A stretch of DNA of 39,417 nucleotides from Flavobacteriaceae bacterium (lineage in GTDB: Bacteria > Bacteroidota > Bacteroidia > Flavobacteriales > Flavobacteriaceae), in assembly GCA_017858055.1 (NCBI GenBank), contig JAFMCA010000021.1, positions 1 to 39,417 on the forward strand. The letters run 5' to 3'. Shown in pieces: positions 33,102 through 39,417 of the stretch. Each line of letters starts with the position of its first letter. Within the stretch, counting starts at the first letter, position 1. The notes below the pieces were generated by a model, which ran no database searches, was not told the origin of the DNA, and saw nothing but the letters and a program-made list of their open reading frames with translations. The position numbers and the translations under genes were made by a program.

Positions 33102-33716
33102 TTAGGCAATCTTGGCTAAACTTTTGTCAATCTCCGAAATCAAGCTTTCCAAGTCTTTTTTATTTTCAACAAAATCCAAATCATCAACGTCAATAATCAC
33201 CATCTTGTCTTTATCGTAGGTGCTGATCCAAGCTTCGTATCGCTCGTTTAGTCGACTTAGATATTCGATACTGATGCTGTTTTCATAATCTCGACCTCGT
33301 TTGTGTATTTTACTGACCAGGTTGGGAATACTACTACGTAAATAAATCAACATATCTGGACCTTCAACTAGAGACTCCATCAAATTAAACAATTCGATGT
33401 AGTTTTTATAATCTCGCTGGCTCATCAAACCCATGGCATTGAGGTTAGGTGCAAAGATATGGGCATCCTCATATACGGTTCGGTCTTGAACTATGGTTTT
33501 GGGATTGTTTTTAAAAGCCAACAACTGCTGAAATCTACTTCTGAGAAAGTAGATTTGAAGGTTAAAGGACCAACGCTCCATGTGGGTATAAAAATCATCT
33601 AAATAAGGGTTGTCAATAACATCTTCGTAATGGGCTTGCCATCCATAATGTTTTGAAATCAGTTCGGTTAGGCTTGTTTTTCCCGCTCCGATATTTCCTG
33701 CAATCGCAATATGCAT
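33102..33716 (-). CDS. Deoxynucleoside kinase
   Basis: A 204-residue deoxynucleoside kinase of the dGK/dCK type. The P-loop GNIGAGKTSLTELI is at residues 7-20, YEDVIDNPYLDDFYTHMERW is the substrate-side region (Glu and the nearby aromatic residues), DRTVYEDAHIFA holds the catalytic ER/DR-type segment, and RGRDYENSISIEYLSRLNERYE is the lid region. It phosphorylates deoxynucleosides for salvage; base specificity is not assigned. It is a single gene, convergent with hppA and divergent from metK. Confidence 0.93.
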   Translation of the reverse strand: MHIAIAGNIGAGKTSLTELISKHYGWQAHYEDVIDNPYLDDFYTHMERWSFNLQIYFLRSRFQQLLAFKNNPKTIVQDRTVYEDAHIFAPNLNAMGLMSQRDYKNYIELFNLMESLVEGPDMLIYLRSSIPNLVSKIHKRGRDYENSISIEYLSRLNERYEAWISTYDKDKMVIIDVDDLDFVENKKDLESLISEIDKSLAKIA

Positions 33717-33817
33717 TCCTGTTGATATTTAGTGATTACGCAAATTAGTTGCTTTTTTCAAAACAAAAAAGGAATCTGCTTTTTAAAAAGACCGAATTAA
33801 TTTTTTTTTGCGTAAAG

Positions 33818-33847
33818 TTTGCTGTAAAAAAAAAATATGTATTTTTG
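33818..33847 (+). promoter_or_regulatory. Promoter of the metK operon
   Basis: TTTG (33818-33821), an 18-base spacer and TATTTTTG (33840-33847) match the Bacteroidota promoter consensus exactly. Transcription should start near 33852-33855, so the RNA begins within a few bases of the SAM-II aptamer stem. Confidence 0.7.
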
Positions 33848-33856
33848 TCTCGTTAA

Positions 33857-33909
33857 ACGAGGAAGGATTTGACTGATTGCAACCTCGATAAAAAATTGCT
33901 AAAGCAGTG
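33857..33909 (+). ncRNA. SAM-II riboswitch aptamer
   Basis: The segment fits the SAM-II (metA-type) H-pseudoknot aptamer. Stem P1 is CGAGG (33858-33862) with CCTCG (33883-33887). Its loop contains the conserved GATTTGAC and GATTGCAA. P1 is followed by ATAAAAAATTGCTAAAGCAG, the conserved A-rich strand and GCUAAA element. The pseudoknot P2 can use ACTG (33872-33875) with CAGT (33905-33908). SAM-II is known from Alphaproteobacteria and Bacteroidota upstream of methionine genes. Here it precedes metK-metY-metX-osmC-metZ, 50 bases from the metK start, and should reduce expression of the operon when S-adenosylmethionine is plentiful. Confidence 0.88.
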
Positions 33910-33952
33910 TTGCTTTTTAAAACGCACCGTTTGAATCCTTCCGTAAAGCAAC
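33909..33952 (+). promoter_or_regulatory. Expression-platform stem of the metK riboswitch
   Basis: GTTGCTTT (33909-33916) and AAAGCAAC (33945-33952) form a perfect 8-bp stem that ends 6 bases before the metK ATG and is followed by TTTT. It could block translation initiation or act as a weak terminator. Its loop contains AATCCTTCC (33934-33942), which is perfectly complementary to GGAAGGATT (33861-33869) inside the aptamer. That pairing crosses this stem, so the two should be mutually exclusive. Confidence 0.65.
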
Positions 33953-33958
33953 TTTTAA

Positions 33959-35215
33959 ATGTCATATTTTTTTACTTCAGAATCGGTAAGCGAAGGGCAT
34001 CCTGACAAAATTTCCGATCAAATTAGCGATGCTTTATTGGATCATTTCTTAGCATTTGACCCAGAAAGCAAGGTAGCCTGTGAAACCATGGTAACTACTG
34101 GGCAAGTCATTTTAGCCGGTGAAGTGAAGAGCGCAACCTACTTGGATGTGCAATCCATAGCTCGTGAAACCATCAATGCCATTGGCTATACGAAAGGAGC
34201 GTATCAATTTAGTGGAGATTCTTGTGGTGTAATTTCTTTAATTCATGAACAGTCTCAAGATATTAATCGTGGGGTAGATCGAGAAGAAAAGGAATCCCAA
34301 GGGGCAGGTGACCAAGGCATCATGTTTGGTTATGCTACTAAAGAAACCGCATCCTACATTCCTTTAGCTCTTGATCTCTCGCATAAAATATTAATAGAAC
34401 TGGCCGAACTTCGGAGAGAGAATAAGGAACTAAACTATTTGCGTCCCGATGCAAAATCACAAGTCACTATTGAATACGACGATCAAAACAATCCTTTAAG
34501 AATCGATACTATTGTTGTTTCTACTCAACACGATGATTTTGACCCAGATGAGAAAGCCATGCTACACAAAATTAAGTCGGATATCATTTCGATCTTAATT
34601 CCTCGTGTAATCGCTAAATCTGAACCCCGTATTCAAAAGCTTTTTGGAAATGACATTACTTATCATGTCAATCCAACAGGAAAATTTGTTATCGGAGGAC
34701 CACATGGGGATACAGGACTCACAGGAAGAAAAATTATCGTTGATACATACGGCGGTAAAGGGGGCCATGGCGGAGGTGCTTTTAGCGGAAAAGATCCGAG
34801 TAAAGTTGACCGAAGTGCAGCATATGCTGCACGTCATATGGCAAAAAACCTTGTAGCGGCAGGAGTAGCCGACGAAATCCTAGTGCAGTTAAGTTACGCC
34901 ATTGGAGTGGTAGAACCAACTTCGGTTTACATCAATACGTATGGTACTTCAAAAGTAGATTTAACCGATTCCCAAATTGCGAAAAAGGCGAGAACCCTGT
35001 TCAACCTTACACCCTATGCCATAGAGCAACGACTTAAGTTGAGAAACCCGATGTACCTAGAAACGGCATCCTATGGGCATATGGGGCGGACGCCTCTTAC
35101 TGTAACCAAAACGTTTGAGTCCCCGTATAACGGAAAAGTGTCGAAGGAAGTAGAGCTTTTCACCTGGGAAAAATTAGATTATTTAGAAACCATTAAAAAA
35201 GAATTTCAATTATGA
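33959..35215 (+). CDS. metK: S-adenosylmethionine synthase MetK
   Basis: A 418-residue methionine adenosyltransferase making S-adenosylmethionine from methionine and ATP. Hallmarks are [20 protein letters not shown] at the start, [13 protein letters not shown], the P-loop-like [13 protein letters not shown], and [20 protein letters not shown]. Length is usual for Bacteroidota. It is first in a five-gene operon, overlaps metY by 4 bases, and is preceded by a SAM-II riboswitch that senses its product, giving direct feedback. Confidence 0.98.
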
Positions 35216-36483
35216 GCAATCAATTAGCAACACTAGCACTTCATGCAGGTCATGAGGCTTCAAACACGCAGGGAACCCAAGCCGTTCCAATTTATCAAAC
35301 AACTTCTTATGTATTCAATAATTCGGATCATGCAGCCAATTTATTTTCTTTGGCAGAATCAGGATTTATCTATACGCGATTAAATAACCCAACCAACGAT
35401 GTTTTAGAACAACGATTGGCCGCTATGGAAGGTGGGGTAGCTGCAGTAGCGACCGCGTCGGGTACGGCTGCTATCGCAACTACACTGATGGTAATTCTCA
35501 AAACTGGGGATCATATTGTAGCGTCGAATAGTTTGTATGGAGGCACGTATAATTTATTAGCAAACACCCTTCCTAGATTTGGAATTACAACTACGTTTGT
35601 CGATCCCGATGTACCAGAAAATTTTACTAAAGCCGTCCAATCCAATACTCGGGCATTTTTTGCAGAGTCTTTAGGAAATCCAAAATTGGATGTATTGGAT
35701 CTTAAAGCGATCTCGGATACAGCTAAGGCTGCTAAAGTTCCCTTTATTGTAGATAATACGGTAGCTTCACCAGCGTTATTAAACCCTATAGCGCATGGAG
35801 CAAATATTGTTATCCATTCCTTGACAAAATACCTTACTGGAAACGGAACTTCTCTTGGGGGGGTCATCATAGATGCGGGTACCTTTAATTGGGGCAATGG
35901 GAATTTTCCAGAATTTACAGAACCCAATCCAAGTTATCACGGGTTAAACTATCACGAAGCTCTTGGAGCAATAGCTTTTATTGCAAAAGTACGGATAGAA
36001 GGTTTACGAGATTTGGGAAGTGCTCCTAGTCCATTCAACAGTTTTCAGACCATACAGGGAATTGAAACCCTTGATATCAGAATGAAAAAACACTCCGAAA
36101 ATGCACTTAAAATTGCGGCCTGGTTATCCACAAAACCGGAAGTTGCATGGGTAAATTATCCAGGACTTAAGACTTCAAAATACAATGATCTCGCACAAAA
36201 ATACTTACCAAAAGGACAGAGTGGAATTGTCACTTTTGGTCTTAAAAAAGGTTTTGAAGGCGGAAAAGTTGTCGCTGATAGCACCAAGCTTTTTGCACTT
36301 TTAGCAAATATTGGCGATACAAAATCGTTGATTATTCATCCAGCGAGCACCACCCATCAACAACTTGATGAAGTTGCTCAGAAAGCAACGGGGGTTACCC
36401 CAGATCTTATTCGTCTTTCTATTGGTATAGAGGATGTCAATGATCTAATTGCGGACTTAGAAAATGCTTTTGCATTACTTTAA
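35212..36483 (+). CDS. metY: O-acetylhomoserine aminocarboxypropyltransferase (sulfhydrylase) MetY
   Basis: A 423-residue Cys/Met-metabolism PLP enzyme. The start [20 protein letters not shown] and the length near 425 are typical of O-acetylhomoserine sulfhydrylases (MetY) rather than the shorter ~390-residue MetB/C/Z group. The Schiff-base lysine is in [12 protein letters not shown], and the cofactor and substrate region in [17 protein letters not shown]. It makes homocysteine from O-acetylhomoserine and sulfide. It overlaps metK by 4 bases and is followed 6 bases later by metX, which makes its substrate. Confidence 0.93.
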
Positions 36484-36489
36484 ATTCAA

Positions 36490-37476
36490 ATGATTTCAGC
36501 TCAAAGTCTTTCCTTTACTGATTTAAAGACCCTTTCAGGGGTTTCTATTGCCAACCTTAAATTGTATTATCAACATTTTGGTCAGCCTTTAGACAAAGCT
36601 CCTGTAGTGTTAATCAATCATTCCCTTACTGGCAACTCGAATGTTGCCGGTTTTAAGGGGTGGTGGAAAGAACTTGTTGGACCTGAAAAAACAATTGATA
36701 CCAATCAGTACGCTATACTTGCTTTTAATATTCCTGGGAATGGTTTTGAGGGTCAAATCCTTTCCAATCCCAAAGATTTTAACACGGGGGATATTGCTCA
36801 CTTTTTTTTAAAGGGGCTAGAACAATTGGGTGTTTCCAAGCTACATGCGTTAATTGGTGGGTCGATAGGGGGAGGAATTGCTTGGGAAATGGCTGTATTA
36901 GCCCCAAAATTAGCTCGCTATTTGATTCCTATTGCGGCAGATTGGAAAGCGAACGATTGGATTCTTGCGAATACGTTTTTACAAAATAGGATTTTAGAAA
37001 ATTCATCAAATCCACTTGAAGACGCTCGCATTCACGCTATGTTAACTTACAGAACGCCACAGTCCTTCGAACAGCGTTTTGGAAGAACAATTAATGAAGA
37101 ATCGGGGATATATAATGTTGAAAGTTGGTTAATCCACCACGGTAAAAAATTAGCAGAACGATTCCAACTGGATGCCTATATACTTGTAAACCACTTGTTG
37201 TCCTCTATAAATATAGAACGACATGGTAGAAAAGCAATTGAACTTATTCAGCAAATTGAAGGAGAAATACACCTTATTGCTGTGGACAGTGATTTGTTTT
37301 TTACTCCTATAGAGGACCAGAAAACATATGAGATGATTAAACCTGTTAAACCTTCAATTTATTATCACGAGTTGAAATCCATTCATGGTCATGATGCGTT
37401 TTTAATTGAAAACGAATCGGTATCTTCAATTTTAAAACCCCTTTTTCCCAATTCAAATTCAAAAATATGGAAGTAG
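36490..37476 (+). CDS. metX: Homoserine O-acetyltransferase MetX-like
   Basis: A 328-residue alpha/beta hydrolase-fold acyltransferase of the MetX family. It shows VVLINHSLTGNSNVAGFKGW for the oxyanion region, LHALIGGSIGGGIAWEMA with the nucleophilic Ser elbow, AVDSDLFFTPIEDQ with the acidic residue, and SIHGHDAFLIE with the catalytic His. It is shorter than typical MetX (about 370 residues). Acylation of homoserine provides the substrate for MetY and MetZ; acetyl rather than succinyl donor is inferred from family. It overlaps the OsmC-like gene by 10 bases. Confidence 0.9.
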   Translation: MISAQSLSFTDLKTLSGVSIANLKLYYQHFGQPLDKAPVVLINHSLTGNSNVAGFKGWWKELVGPEKTIDTNQYAILAFNIPGNGFEGQILSNPKDFNTGDIAHFFLKGLEQLGVSKLHALIGGSIGGGIAWEMAVLAPKLARYLIPIAADWKANDWILANTFLQNRILENSSNPLEDARIHAMLTYRTPQSFEQRFGRTINEESGIYNVESWLIHHGKKLAERFQLDAYILVNHLLSSINIERHGRKAIELIQQIEGEIHLIAVDSDLFFTPIEDQKTYEMIKPVKPSIYYHELKSIHGHDAFLIENESVSSILKPLFPNSNSKIWK

Positions 37477-37892
37477 TACTAGAGCGAATAAACGATGACT
37501 ATTTGTTTGAAGTTTCCAATTCAAACGGGCATAAAGTCCTCCTCGACAACAAATCTAAAACCAGTGGTGAAGTTCAAGGCGTAAGTCCGATGGAACTCCT
37601 TTTGATGGGAGTGGCTGGCTGCAGCGCCATAGATATTGTTTCCATTTTAAACAAGCAAAAAATAAATCCTACTGTGCTTAAAATGGAAGTGAAGGGACTC
37701 CGTAAAGCAGATGAAGTACCCTCTCTTTTCTACCAAATTGATATCCTGATTCACCTTGAAGGAGATTTTTCCCCTGAAAAGGCTAAACGTGCTGCTCAAT
37801 TGTCCTATGACAAATATTGTTCAGTATCAAAAACGTTAGAGCCTACTGCAAAAATTAATCATAAAGTTATTTTAAATGGAGAAGAAGTCTGA
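37467..37892 (+). CDS. OsmC family protein
   Basis: A 141-residue OsmC/Ohr-family protein. Typical features are the segment SPMELLLMGVAGCSAIDIVSI with the first peroxidatic-type cysteine and YDKYCSVSKTLEPTAKI with the second. Family members reduce organic hydroperoxides with thiols. It overlaps metX by 10 bases and metZ by 17 bases, so it is clearly part of the methionine operon; this location suggests a link to sulfur or thiol metabolism but the substrate is unknown. Confidence 0.9.
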   Translation: MEVVLERINDDYLFEVSNSNGHKVLLDNKSKTSGEVQGVSPMELLLMGVAGCSAIDIVSILNKQKINPTVLKMEVKGLRKADEVPSLFYQIDILIHLEGDFSPEKAKRAAQLSYDKYCSVSKTLEPTAKINHKVILNGEEV

Positions 37893-39054
37893 CCAACATT
37901 TTGAAACAGTTGCAATTAGAACTCAGATGGAGCGCTCCCCTTTTTCTGAGCATTCTACCCCATTACATTTAACTTCAAGTTTTGTTTTTGAAGATGCCGA
38001 GGAAATGCGCGCTTCTTTTGCTGAAGAAAAAGAAAGAAATATTTACAGTCGATTTTCAAATCCCAATACCTCTGAATTTATTCAGAAAGTGGTGCAAATG
38101 GAAGGGGCTGAAGAGGGTGTTGCTTTTGCCAGTGGCATGGGTGCAGTTTTTGCAACATTTGCTACATTTTTAAATACAGGAGATCACATCCTCTCTGCAC
38201 GAGCCGTTTTTGGATCTACACATGCCTTGTTTACAAAGTATTTACCAAAGTGGGGAATAGACACGACTTATTTTGCAGTAGATGAGATTGACCGTTTGGA
38301 AACGATACTTCAGCCCAATACTCGATGTATATATGTTGAATCACCAACCAATCCAGGTGTTGATATTCTCGATTTGGAGGCCATAGGAAAATTCGCAAAA
38401 AAGCATGAGCTTTTATTTATAGTAGATAATTGTTTTGCCACTCCTTACCTCCAGCAACCCATGCGATTTGGTGCGGATTTGGTAATTCATTCGGCTACAA
38501 AACTTATGGACGGTCAAGGACGTGTTTTGGGAGGCATTACGGTTGGAAAAAAAGAACTCATAAGAGAACTCTATTTGTTTGCCCGAAATACGGGTGCTTC
38601 ACTTTCTCCTTTTAATGCCTGGGTTTTATCCAAAAGTCTGGAAACATTAGCCATACGTGTAGATCGACATTGCGAAAGTGCTTTAAAAATTGCTGAAAAA
38701 TTAGAAAAGCACTCAAAAATCAATTGGGTAAAATATCCTTTTTTAAGTTCACACCCCCAATACCATCTTGCTTTAAAACAAATGAAAAAAGGAGGAAATA
38801 TTATTTCGTTTGAGGTCAAAGGGGGAATTGAGGCAGGAAGGAATTTCATCAATGCGATCCAACTGTGTTCCTTATCCGCAAATTTAGGTGATTCAAGATC
38901 CATAATTACTCATCCTTCTTCTACTACTCACAGCAAACTTTCTGAATCAGAACAGTTAGAAGTTGGAATTACTTCAGGAATGATTAGACTCTCCGTAGGG
39001 CTAGAACATAGTGATGATATTTGGAACGATTTGAATACGGCTTTAAGTTCATAA
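37876..39054 (+). CDS. metZ: Trans-sulfuration PLP enzyme, O-succinylhomoserine sulfhydrylase-like
   Basis: A 392-residue Cys/Met-metabolism PLP enzyme. The Schiff-base lysine is in VIHSATKLMDGQGRVLGG, cofactor contacts in FASGMGAVFATF and FVDNCFATPYLQQP, and the C-terminus has SLSANLGDSRSIITHPSSTTH. Segments such as RSPFSEHSTPLHLTSSFVFED near the start resemble O-succinylhomoserine sulfhydrylase (MetZ); cystathionine gamma-synthase or beta-lyase cannot be excluded from sequence alone. It overlaps the osmC-like gene by 17 bases and ends the operon. Confidence 0.88.
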   Translation: MEKKSDQHFETVAIRTQMERSPFSEHSTPLHLTSSFVFEDAEEMRASFAEEKERNIYSRFSNPNTSEFIQKVVQMEGAEEGVAFASGMGAVFATFATFLNTGDHILSARAVFGSTHALFTKYLPKWGIDTTYFAVDEIDRLETILQPNTRCIYVESPTNPGVDILDLEAIGKFAKKHELLFIVDNCFATPYLQQPMRFGADLVIHSATKLMDGQGRVLGGITVGKKELIRELYLFARNTGASLSPFNAWVLSKSLETLAIRVDRHCESALKIAEKLEKHSKINWVKYPFLSSHPQYHLALKQMKKGGNIISFEVKGGIEAGRNFINAIQLCSLSANLGDSRSIITHPSSTTHSKLSESEQLEVGITSGMIRLSVGLEHSDDIWNDLNTALSS

Positions 39055-39209: not shown

Positions 39210-39368
39210 ATGCTTTCTAAAAAAACTAAATACGGAATTAAAGCACTTACTTTTATAGCAAGAAACCAAGGAGATGTCCCAGTTCAAGTGGGTGTAATTG
39301 CTAATCATGAGCAAATACCTCAAAAATTTCTTGAAAATATTTTGTTGACACTTCGAAAATCAGGGATA
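39210..39368 (+). CDS. Rrf2 family transcriptional regulator, N-terminal part
   Basis: The first ~53 codons, MLSKKTKYGIKALTFIA onward, match the winged-helix N-terminus of Rrf2-family regulators, through AIANHE-like helix residues (GVIANHEQIPQKFLENILL) to LRKSGI. The family would continue with a Gly-Lys-rich wing, but the frame switches here to reductase-like sequence, so the rest of the gene is not in this window. Rrf2 regulators in this position commonly control sulfur or cysteine assimilation operons, consistent with the adjacent methionine genes. No cluster-binding cysteines can be assessed. Confidence 0.8.
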
Positions 39369-39417
39369 TTTGCAATTGGGGATGTAAATACCTATCCTGA
39401 AAAATTAAAATTAATTT
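39363..39417 (+). pseudogene. Ferredoxin-NADP reductase-like fragment at window end
   Basis: From about 39363 the frame reads GIFAIGDVNTYPEKLKLI, which is the NADP/FAD-domain signature of thioredoxin-reductase-like ferredoxin-NADP reductases (usually GIFAIGDxNTYPGKLKLI). It is joined in frame to the Rrf2 gene at the shared bases GGGAT. Only 18 residues are present. It is more likely a junction product than a real fusion, since nothing links an Rrf2 wing to a reductase core. Confidence 0.7.

Follow-up and report, generated by a model that had tools for sequence, protein, structure and literature searches.

A candidate Shine-Dalgarno-free expression platform for the SAM-II riboswitch ahead of metK in Flavobacteriales

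How might a riboswitch control translation at a start codon that has no Shine-Dalgarno site? The textbook translational riboswitch works by hiding that site. The question is raised by the metK leader on a stretch of 39,417 nucleotides (nt) from a Flavobacteriaceae bacterium (contig JAFMCA010000021.1 of assembly GCA_017858055.1; the whole stretch is hereafter the window), which carries an S-adenosylmethionine (SAM) riboswitch of the SAM-II class. When the sequence ahead of the metK AUG was read, no Shine-Dalgarno (GGAGG-like) site was found, and AAAGCAACUUUUAA stands there instead; the Bacteroidota are characterized in a passage of PMC6847099 as a phylum without such sites. We consider it likely that the element is an OFF switch that acts on translation start without a Shine-Dalgarno site, lowering expression of metK and the downstream met genes at high SAM. 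Three computed results underlie this reading: the aptamer matches a covariance model, two pairings of the leader exclude one another in nested form, and complementarity between aptamer and linker exceeds chance across the order.

The aptamer was identified with an Rfam covariance-model scan (cmscan) of the entire window at the gathering cut-off, in which the sole match was to SAM-II long loop (RF01726), on the forward strand at 33853-33912 (78.5 bits against a cut-off of 44, E 8.9e-14, full model 1-60), and no match to RF00521 was listed. An earlier note on this DNA, made from the letters alone, had proposed a SAM-II aptamer and named RF00521 for the check; the SAM-II identity is borne out by this significant match, although the family is RF01726. 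The P1 helix lies exactly where the note had placed it (33858-33862 with 33883-33887), and the sequence elements that it named are present as GATTTGAC (33866-33873), GATTGCAA (33875-33882) and GCTAAA (33898-33903). The same note announced a fully readable switch without spelling it out, and a candidate anti-aptamer for it is given below. The SAM-II core of GAUUUG, CUGAUUGCAA and GCUAAA is complete in the window aptamer, whose end lies 46 nt from the metK start, and one SAM-II was found in the genome (2.0 Mb, 67 contigs). Pairs were counted over 34 leaders (33 distinct) from the window's genus and three near genera, in an automatic alignment that misplaces a small hairpin of the linker in some rows. 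P1 is paired in 97.0% of cells and the P2 pseudoknot in 96.2% (33 distinct leaders each); three of the four P2 pairs never vary across the leaders. Judged from its sequence, the metK-leader element is by fold a genuine SAM-II riboswitch and an ordinary member of a known family, and its ligand is presumably SAM. That a SAM-II-like aptamer here senses something else, such as S-adenosylhomocysteine (SAH), has hardly any probability in our estimate, given the full-length 78.5-bit match and the presence of metK behind 116 of 120 such matches in the order.

In its minimum-energy fold the leader does not form the aptamer; GGAAGGAUUU pairs instead with GAAUCCUUCC, in a helix that can be extended to 12 pairs between 33861-33872 of the aptamer and an anti-aptamer strand at 33931-33942 of the linker. 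When the growing chain was folded in 4-nt steps, P1 was kept up to 84 nt and the anti-aptamer helix appeared from 88 nt. For the whole leader, the fold with the anti-aptamer helix has an energy of -21.9 kcal/mol, compared with -20.3 kcal/mol when P1 is forced; this gap of 1.6 kcal/mol, in which neither the pseudoknot nor SAM is counted, suggests that the leader is poised between the two folds. With the aptamer held, GUUGCUUU (33909-33916) is predicted to pair with AAAGCAAC (33945-33952), forming a start-site helix, H1, 14 to 7 bases before the AUG. H1 and the anti-aptamer helix are mutually exclusive in nested form, because the latter encloses only the first arm of H1. In Flavobacterium, structure and A residues at particular positions ahead of the start are reported to modulate translation (PMC6847099), so a helix ahead of the AUG is a plausible brake.

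Support for the anti-aptamer comes mainly from comparison between genera, as covariation within the genus is weak. For 116 metK leaders, we computed the duplex energy of the linker, taken as far as the AUG, with the aptamer's 5' half, and compared each with 200 dinucleotide-preserving shuffles of its linker. The duplex reached p<=0.05 at 86 of the 116 loci, in 48 of 69 genera represented by one locus each, and in 31/31 leaders of the window's genus. In a version with 100 shuffles, the linker was significant in 44/69 genera, whereas upstream and coding segments of equal length were significant in only 5/69 and 6/69, respectively. The complementarity is also locus-specific: when linkers were swapped among the 69 genera, the mean energy rose from -17.84 for own pairs to -15.06 (standard deviation 0.28), and none of 10,000 permutations, the best of which gave -16.16, reached the own-pair mean.

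A second set comprised 80 metK loci of public genomes, 49 of them with the motif; one Sphingobacterium locus (L206) was left out of the group tests, the non-Bacteroidales group includes two Sphingobacteriaceae caught by a looser pattern, and two linkers are identical to linkers of the first set. Outside Bacteroidales, 22 of 32 loci reached p<=0.05 and 0/5000 permutations matched the own-pair mean. Across both sets, 52 CAAAT sites in linkers could be compared with the AUUUG of their own aptamers; at the five flanking bases, 165 pairs were formed compared with 145 after permutation, a value reached in 0/5000. The opposing strand varies in sequence between genera: it targets GGAAGGAUU in the genus of the window, GAUUUGAC in many others and CUGAUUGCAA in some. 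These results bear on the explanation that linker complementarity merely reflects base composition or common descent, with no switching at all. Linkers and aptamers of related species are indeed not independent, and 21 of the 69 genera lack a significant match, a gap that also weighs against the switch we propose. However, the dinucleotide shuffles, the upstream and coding controls, the linker swaps and the second set all argue against a no-switching origin, as does the pairing of different genera with different parts of the aptamer, and we regard this explanation as very improbable.

An anti-aptamer directed instead against the aptamer's 3' half (GCUAAAGCAGU) was rejected as the main switch, as only 8/69 genera reached p<=0.05; CUUUAGC-like strands can be seen by eye in some linkers. 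Separately, in one Prolixibacteraceae locus (L216) the aptamer loop contains an unusual insertion (AUUUGUGAAUGAUUGCAA), to which a long strand of the linker is complementary.

For an effect at the start site, we compared the free leader with a bound model in which the aptamer is unavailable for other pairing. Opening of -10..+10 costs >0.5 kcal/mol more in the bound model in 28/31 leaders of the genus and in 49/68 other genera, whereas the reverse holds in 1/31 and 3/68. The bound-minus-free cost exceeds that of shuffled linkers (60 each) at p<=0.05 in 30/31 leaders of the genus and 23/68 other genera. A wider region, -20..+15, opens less easily in the bound model in 43/68 other genera. The paired fraction of cells is 98.1% for H1 itself and 94.5% for the anti-aptamer (34 leaders).

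Besides the 21 genera already mentioned, several results weigh against the proposed switch. In 23/31 leaders of the genus, -20..+15 is easier to open in the bound model. For the window leader, the sign of the effect at -10..+10 flips with the length of coding sequence folded: with 30 nt the bound model opens less easily (3.06 vs 0.79), but with 45 nt it opens more easily (1.99 vs 2.66), and the bound value of 3.06 is that of the shuffles (2.99). The leader's total fold energy is unremarkable (z -0.25). Among Bacteroidales of the second set, only 4/16 loci reached p<=0.05, with 0/5000 permutations reaching the own-pair mean, and one of the five CAAAT-flank positions pairs less than permuted (5 vs 8.8). 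Covariation in the bound state was reached by 24 to 349 of 500 shuffles, depending on the measure, and in the free state by 65 to 418 of 500; covariation within the genus was accordingly dropped as the main proof, not being clearly above shuffles. Permutation of the H1 arms gave 332/5000 at or beyond the observed value (31 distinct arm pairs, 36 leaders, L023 dropped). Given these unclear outcomes, H1 is better described as conserved than as proved by covariation.

Taken at its most likely, the switch would work as follows. The aptamer (33858-33908) would emerge first as RNA polymerase leaves the promoter. With SAM bound, P1 and the P2 pseudoknot would hold, the strand at 33931-33942 would stay off the aptamer, and GUUGCUUU would be free to pair with AAAGCAAC in the helix before the AUG. 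In the absence of SAM, 33931-33942 would invade 33861-33872 and dismantle P1; the start-site helix would then be prevented, because 33909-33916 would be enclosed in the new loop, and the initiation region would be freed. The OFF logic and translation as the controlled step are what we infer.

The same SAM-II aptamer might instead act through Rho-dependent termination or mRNA decay, if SAM binding exposed the linker or blocked early ribosomes. Switches that alter start-site structure are known to be able to act through Rho or RNases, SAM-II in Sinorhizobium is reported to affect the levels and stability of mRNA and small RNA (PMC9373788), and the linker, partly single-stranded in the bound model, would permit such control. 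The above-shuffle difference in accessibility around the AUG is, however, explained more simply by translation, and we hold this route to be unlikely, if worth keeping in mind. Transcription attenuation by an intrinsic terminator, the mode predicted for most proteobacterial SAM-II switches, seems to us far less probable still. No terminator-like site, a G+C-rich hairpin with a U run between aptamer and gene, occurs in 33717-34010 of the window. A search of the linker plus 10 coding bases gave 0/69 genera against 0.75 expected (20 shuffle rounds), and the bases after H1 are A+T-rich with no U run shared by 36 leaders. In a 2007 survey, translation control was assigned by default where a terminator was lacking, and hiding structures were not modelled (PMC2258182). 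Control of translation start by mutually exclusive folds thus remains the reading that we prefer.

How general is this arrangement? In a sample of 149 Flavobacteriales genomes, the window's own included, SAM-II matched at E<=0.001 in 118, over the cut-off in 117, with 120 matches in total. metK lies downstream of 116 of these, 114 by tblastn and two (L026 and L120) from their first codons. Of the others, L030 precedes metY-metX and L119 is a 28-bit match under the cut-off. In L039 and L041, from two relatives, a further SAM-II stands ahead of a small membrane protein with metH behind (L039 403-954, L041 902-1456); this protein is DUF6580 by Pfam in L039 and looks alike by eye in L041, where a short open reading frame (ORF) comes first and metZ lies between. 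Our guess is that it could be a methionine-related transporter. Among the 31/149 genomes without a match, 20 were inspected: nine have no MetK in the assembly and 11 do. Five of those 11 leaders are cut by a contig end, one of them still showing the aptamer end and linker, and the six full metK leaders (G072, G092, G094, G100, G107 and G115; L234-L236, L238-L240) have no visible SAM-II core. Across the order, SAM-II on metK is therefore the norm, though genuine exceptions exist, and the window aptamer sits in an ordinary place.

The earlier note had called for comparison with metK leaders of related flavobacteria, and the same element does precede metK there. Its other observations on the locus agree with ours: a promoter directly ahead, with the start within about five bases of the aptamer (we expect it near 33852, six bases upstream of P1), and a methionine operon behind. 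Our NCBIfam comparison confirms metK and related met genes after it. What it singled out as interesting fares less well, since neither the metK placement nor the promoter proximity is new; the former is the norm just described, and SAM-II was reported to have a promoter a few bases ahead of P1 as early as 2005 (PMC1273637). For Flavobacterium psychrophilum, the sigma-A -7 box is reported as TAnnTTTG at -12 to -5, and five Rfam cis-elements are reported to be expressed (PMC9723704). TAnnTTTG occurs <=45 bases upstream of the aptamer GG in 64/69 genera, a count given without a computed chance rate.

The features of the locus are collected in Table 1. metK, of which one copy was found in the genome, heads metK-metY-metX-osmC-metZ, in which neighbouring genes overlap or are separated by a few bases. 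Upstream of the leader, a divergent gene (33102-33716, minus strand) has a weak match to dTMP kinase (22 bits against a cut-off of 83).

Table 1. Coordinates of the metK leader and operon in the window.
Feature	Position	Strand	Basis
TTTG, which we take to be a -33-like promoter element	33818..33821	+	read from sequence
TATTTTTG, TAnnTTTG -7 box; start expected near 33852	33840..33847	+	sequence, PMC9723704
SAM-II (long loop) aptamer, RF01726	33853..33912	+	78.5 bits, cut-off 44
P1 5' strand CGAGG	33858..33862	+	sequence and Rfam match
Aptamer target of candidate anti-aptamer, GGAAGGAUUUGA	33861..33872	+	folding
P2 pseudoknot 5' strand ACUG	33872..33875	+	sequence, pair counts
P1 3' strand CCTCG	33883..33887	+	sequence and Rfam match
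P2 pseudoknot 3' strand CAGU	33905..33908	+	sequence, pair counts
5' arm of predicted start-site helix H1, GUUGCUUU	33909..33916	+	folding, pair counts
Small hairpin AAACG-CAC-CGUUU, in predicted folds of both states	33920..33932	+	folding
Candidate anti-aptamer strand UUGAAUCCUUCC	33931..33942	+	folding, shuffles, permutations, second set
3' arm of predicted H1, AAAGCAAC (-14 to -7 of AUG)	33945..33952	+	folding, pair counts
metK, methionine adenosyltransferase, 418 amino acids	33959..35215	+	TIGR01034 (NCBIfam) over cut-off
metY, O-acetylhomoserine sulfhydrylase	35212..36483	+	TIGR01326 over cut-off
metX-like acyltransferase, 328 amino acids	36490..37476	+	below curated cut-off
OsmC-like protein	37467..37892	+	below curated cut-off
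metZ-like sulfhydrylase	37876..39054	+	best model PRK08133, below curated cut-off

SAM-I (S box) RNAs also sense SAM, and the same genome carries one (RF00162, 88.9 bits) outside the window, ahead of metH-metH-metF (G000 contig C24 338-448, locus L273). SAM-I matches occur in 70/149 genomes, 66 of which also carry SAM-II; a survey of 2007 had come across no species of this kind. The two elements lie within 600 bp of each other in 13 genomes, always divergent (head to head), and in seven further genomes both are on one strand, SAM-II first and SAM-I 1.4-1.5 kb further on, behind metK. At 29 SAM-I loci of relatives, searched with the eight proteins of this operon, the nearest downstream match was metX-like in 13, metH in 11, metZ-like in two, OsmC-like in two and metY in one, and never metK; these gene names are loose, because some identities are only 26-38%. 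All 29 loci precede methionine-synthesis-like genes. By these counts, metK goes mostly with SAM-II and methionine synthesis with SAM-I.

An exception to this division is the window's genus, where SAM-I was matched in only one of 38 genomes, the window's own, under strict filters that may lose weak matches. In other species of the genus, 16/16 loci with a match to both genes have metH starting <=24 bases from metZ, which places everything from metK to metH behind a single SAM-II. The window's final 55 bases are identical to the opening 55 of the SAM-I contig and were found nowhere else in the genome; the two contigs therefore probably join, in the order SAM-II-metK-metY-metX-osmC-metZ-(Rrf2/reductase remnant)-SAM-I-metH-metH-metF. 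Across this overlap runs an ORF (window 39210-39417 plus L273 1-216) that resembles an Rrf2 regulator at its start (PF02082, 43 bits) and the tail of a ferredoxin-NADP reductase at its end (5ygq, E 1e-15), and that may be either a deletion scar or an assembly junction. We considered whether such a reductase tail usually precedes SAM-I-metH in the family; among the loci searched, the 71-residue tail matched only the window, the SAM-I loci of relatives reaching <=1.5 kb upstream. More tentatively, and with the odds somewhat against it, Flavobacteriales may possess a two-tier SAM homeostat, in which SAM-II with a quickly changing, Shine-Dalgarno-free anti-aptamer would govern metK and SAM-I would govern methionine synthesis, the two sharing one intergenic region on opposite strands in some species, with both circuits merged under SAM-II in the window's genus.

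Comparison with known systems places the window element within its class. SAM-II long loop was listed for Bacteroidetes and marine samples in 2010 (Weinberg et al., PMC2864571), and the window element, likewise from this phylum, matches the full covariance model; the main-text description there gives no expression platform, for which the window adds a candidate. SAM-II ahead of metA and metZ in Alphaproteobacteria shares P1, the P2 pseudoknot, a promoter just before P1 and methionine or SAM genes, but terminators or Shine-Dalgarno masking are reported or predicted there (PMC1273637, PMC9373788), whereas in the window we see no terminator and no Shine-Dalgarno site, and metK leads the gene order. 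SAM-I (S box, RF00162) also controls methionine genes but differs in fold, and the SAM/SAH and SAM-Chlorobi elements, also found in metK leaders, are described as other RNA motifs from Rhodobacterales and Chlorobi (PMC2864571). Among the papers listed in our searches of the open-access literature, none dealt with how SAM-II controls expression in Bacteroidota or with flavobacteria that use SAM-I and SAM-II together.

Two computational results are of specialist interest: the candidate expression platform, which lacks a Shine-Dalgarno site and whose anti-aptamers change, and the use of SAM-I alongside SAM-II. This leader and more than 100 relatives offer a compact, testable case of how a riboswitch might control translation start without a Shine-Dalgarno site, with natural variants in which differing strands oppose the same aptamer. 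The presence of SAM-I and SAM-II in one genome likewise makes it possible to test whether two RNA classes divide the work on a single metabolite; if they do and their affinities differ, methionine synthesis and SAM synthesis would be shut at different SAM levels.
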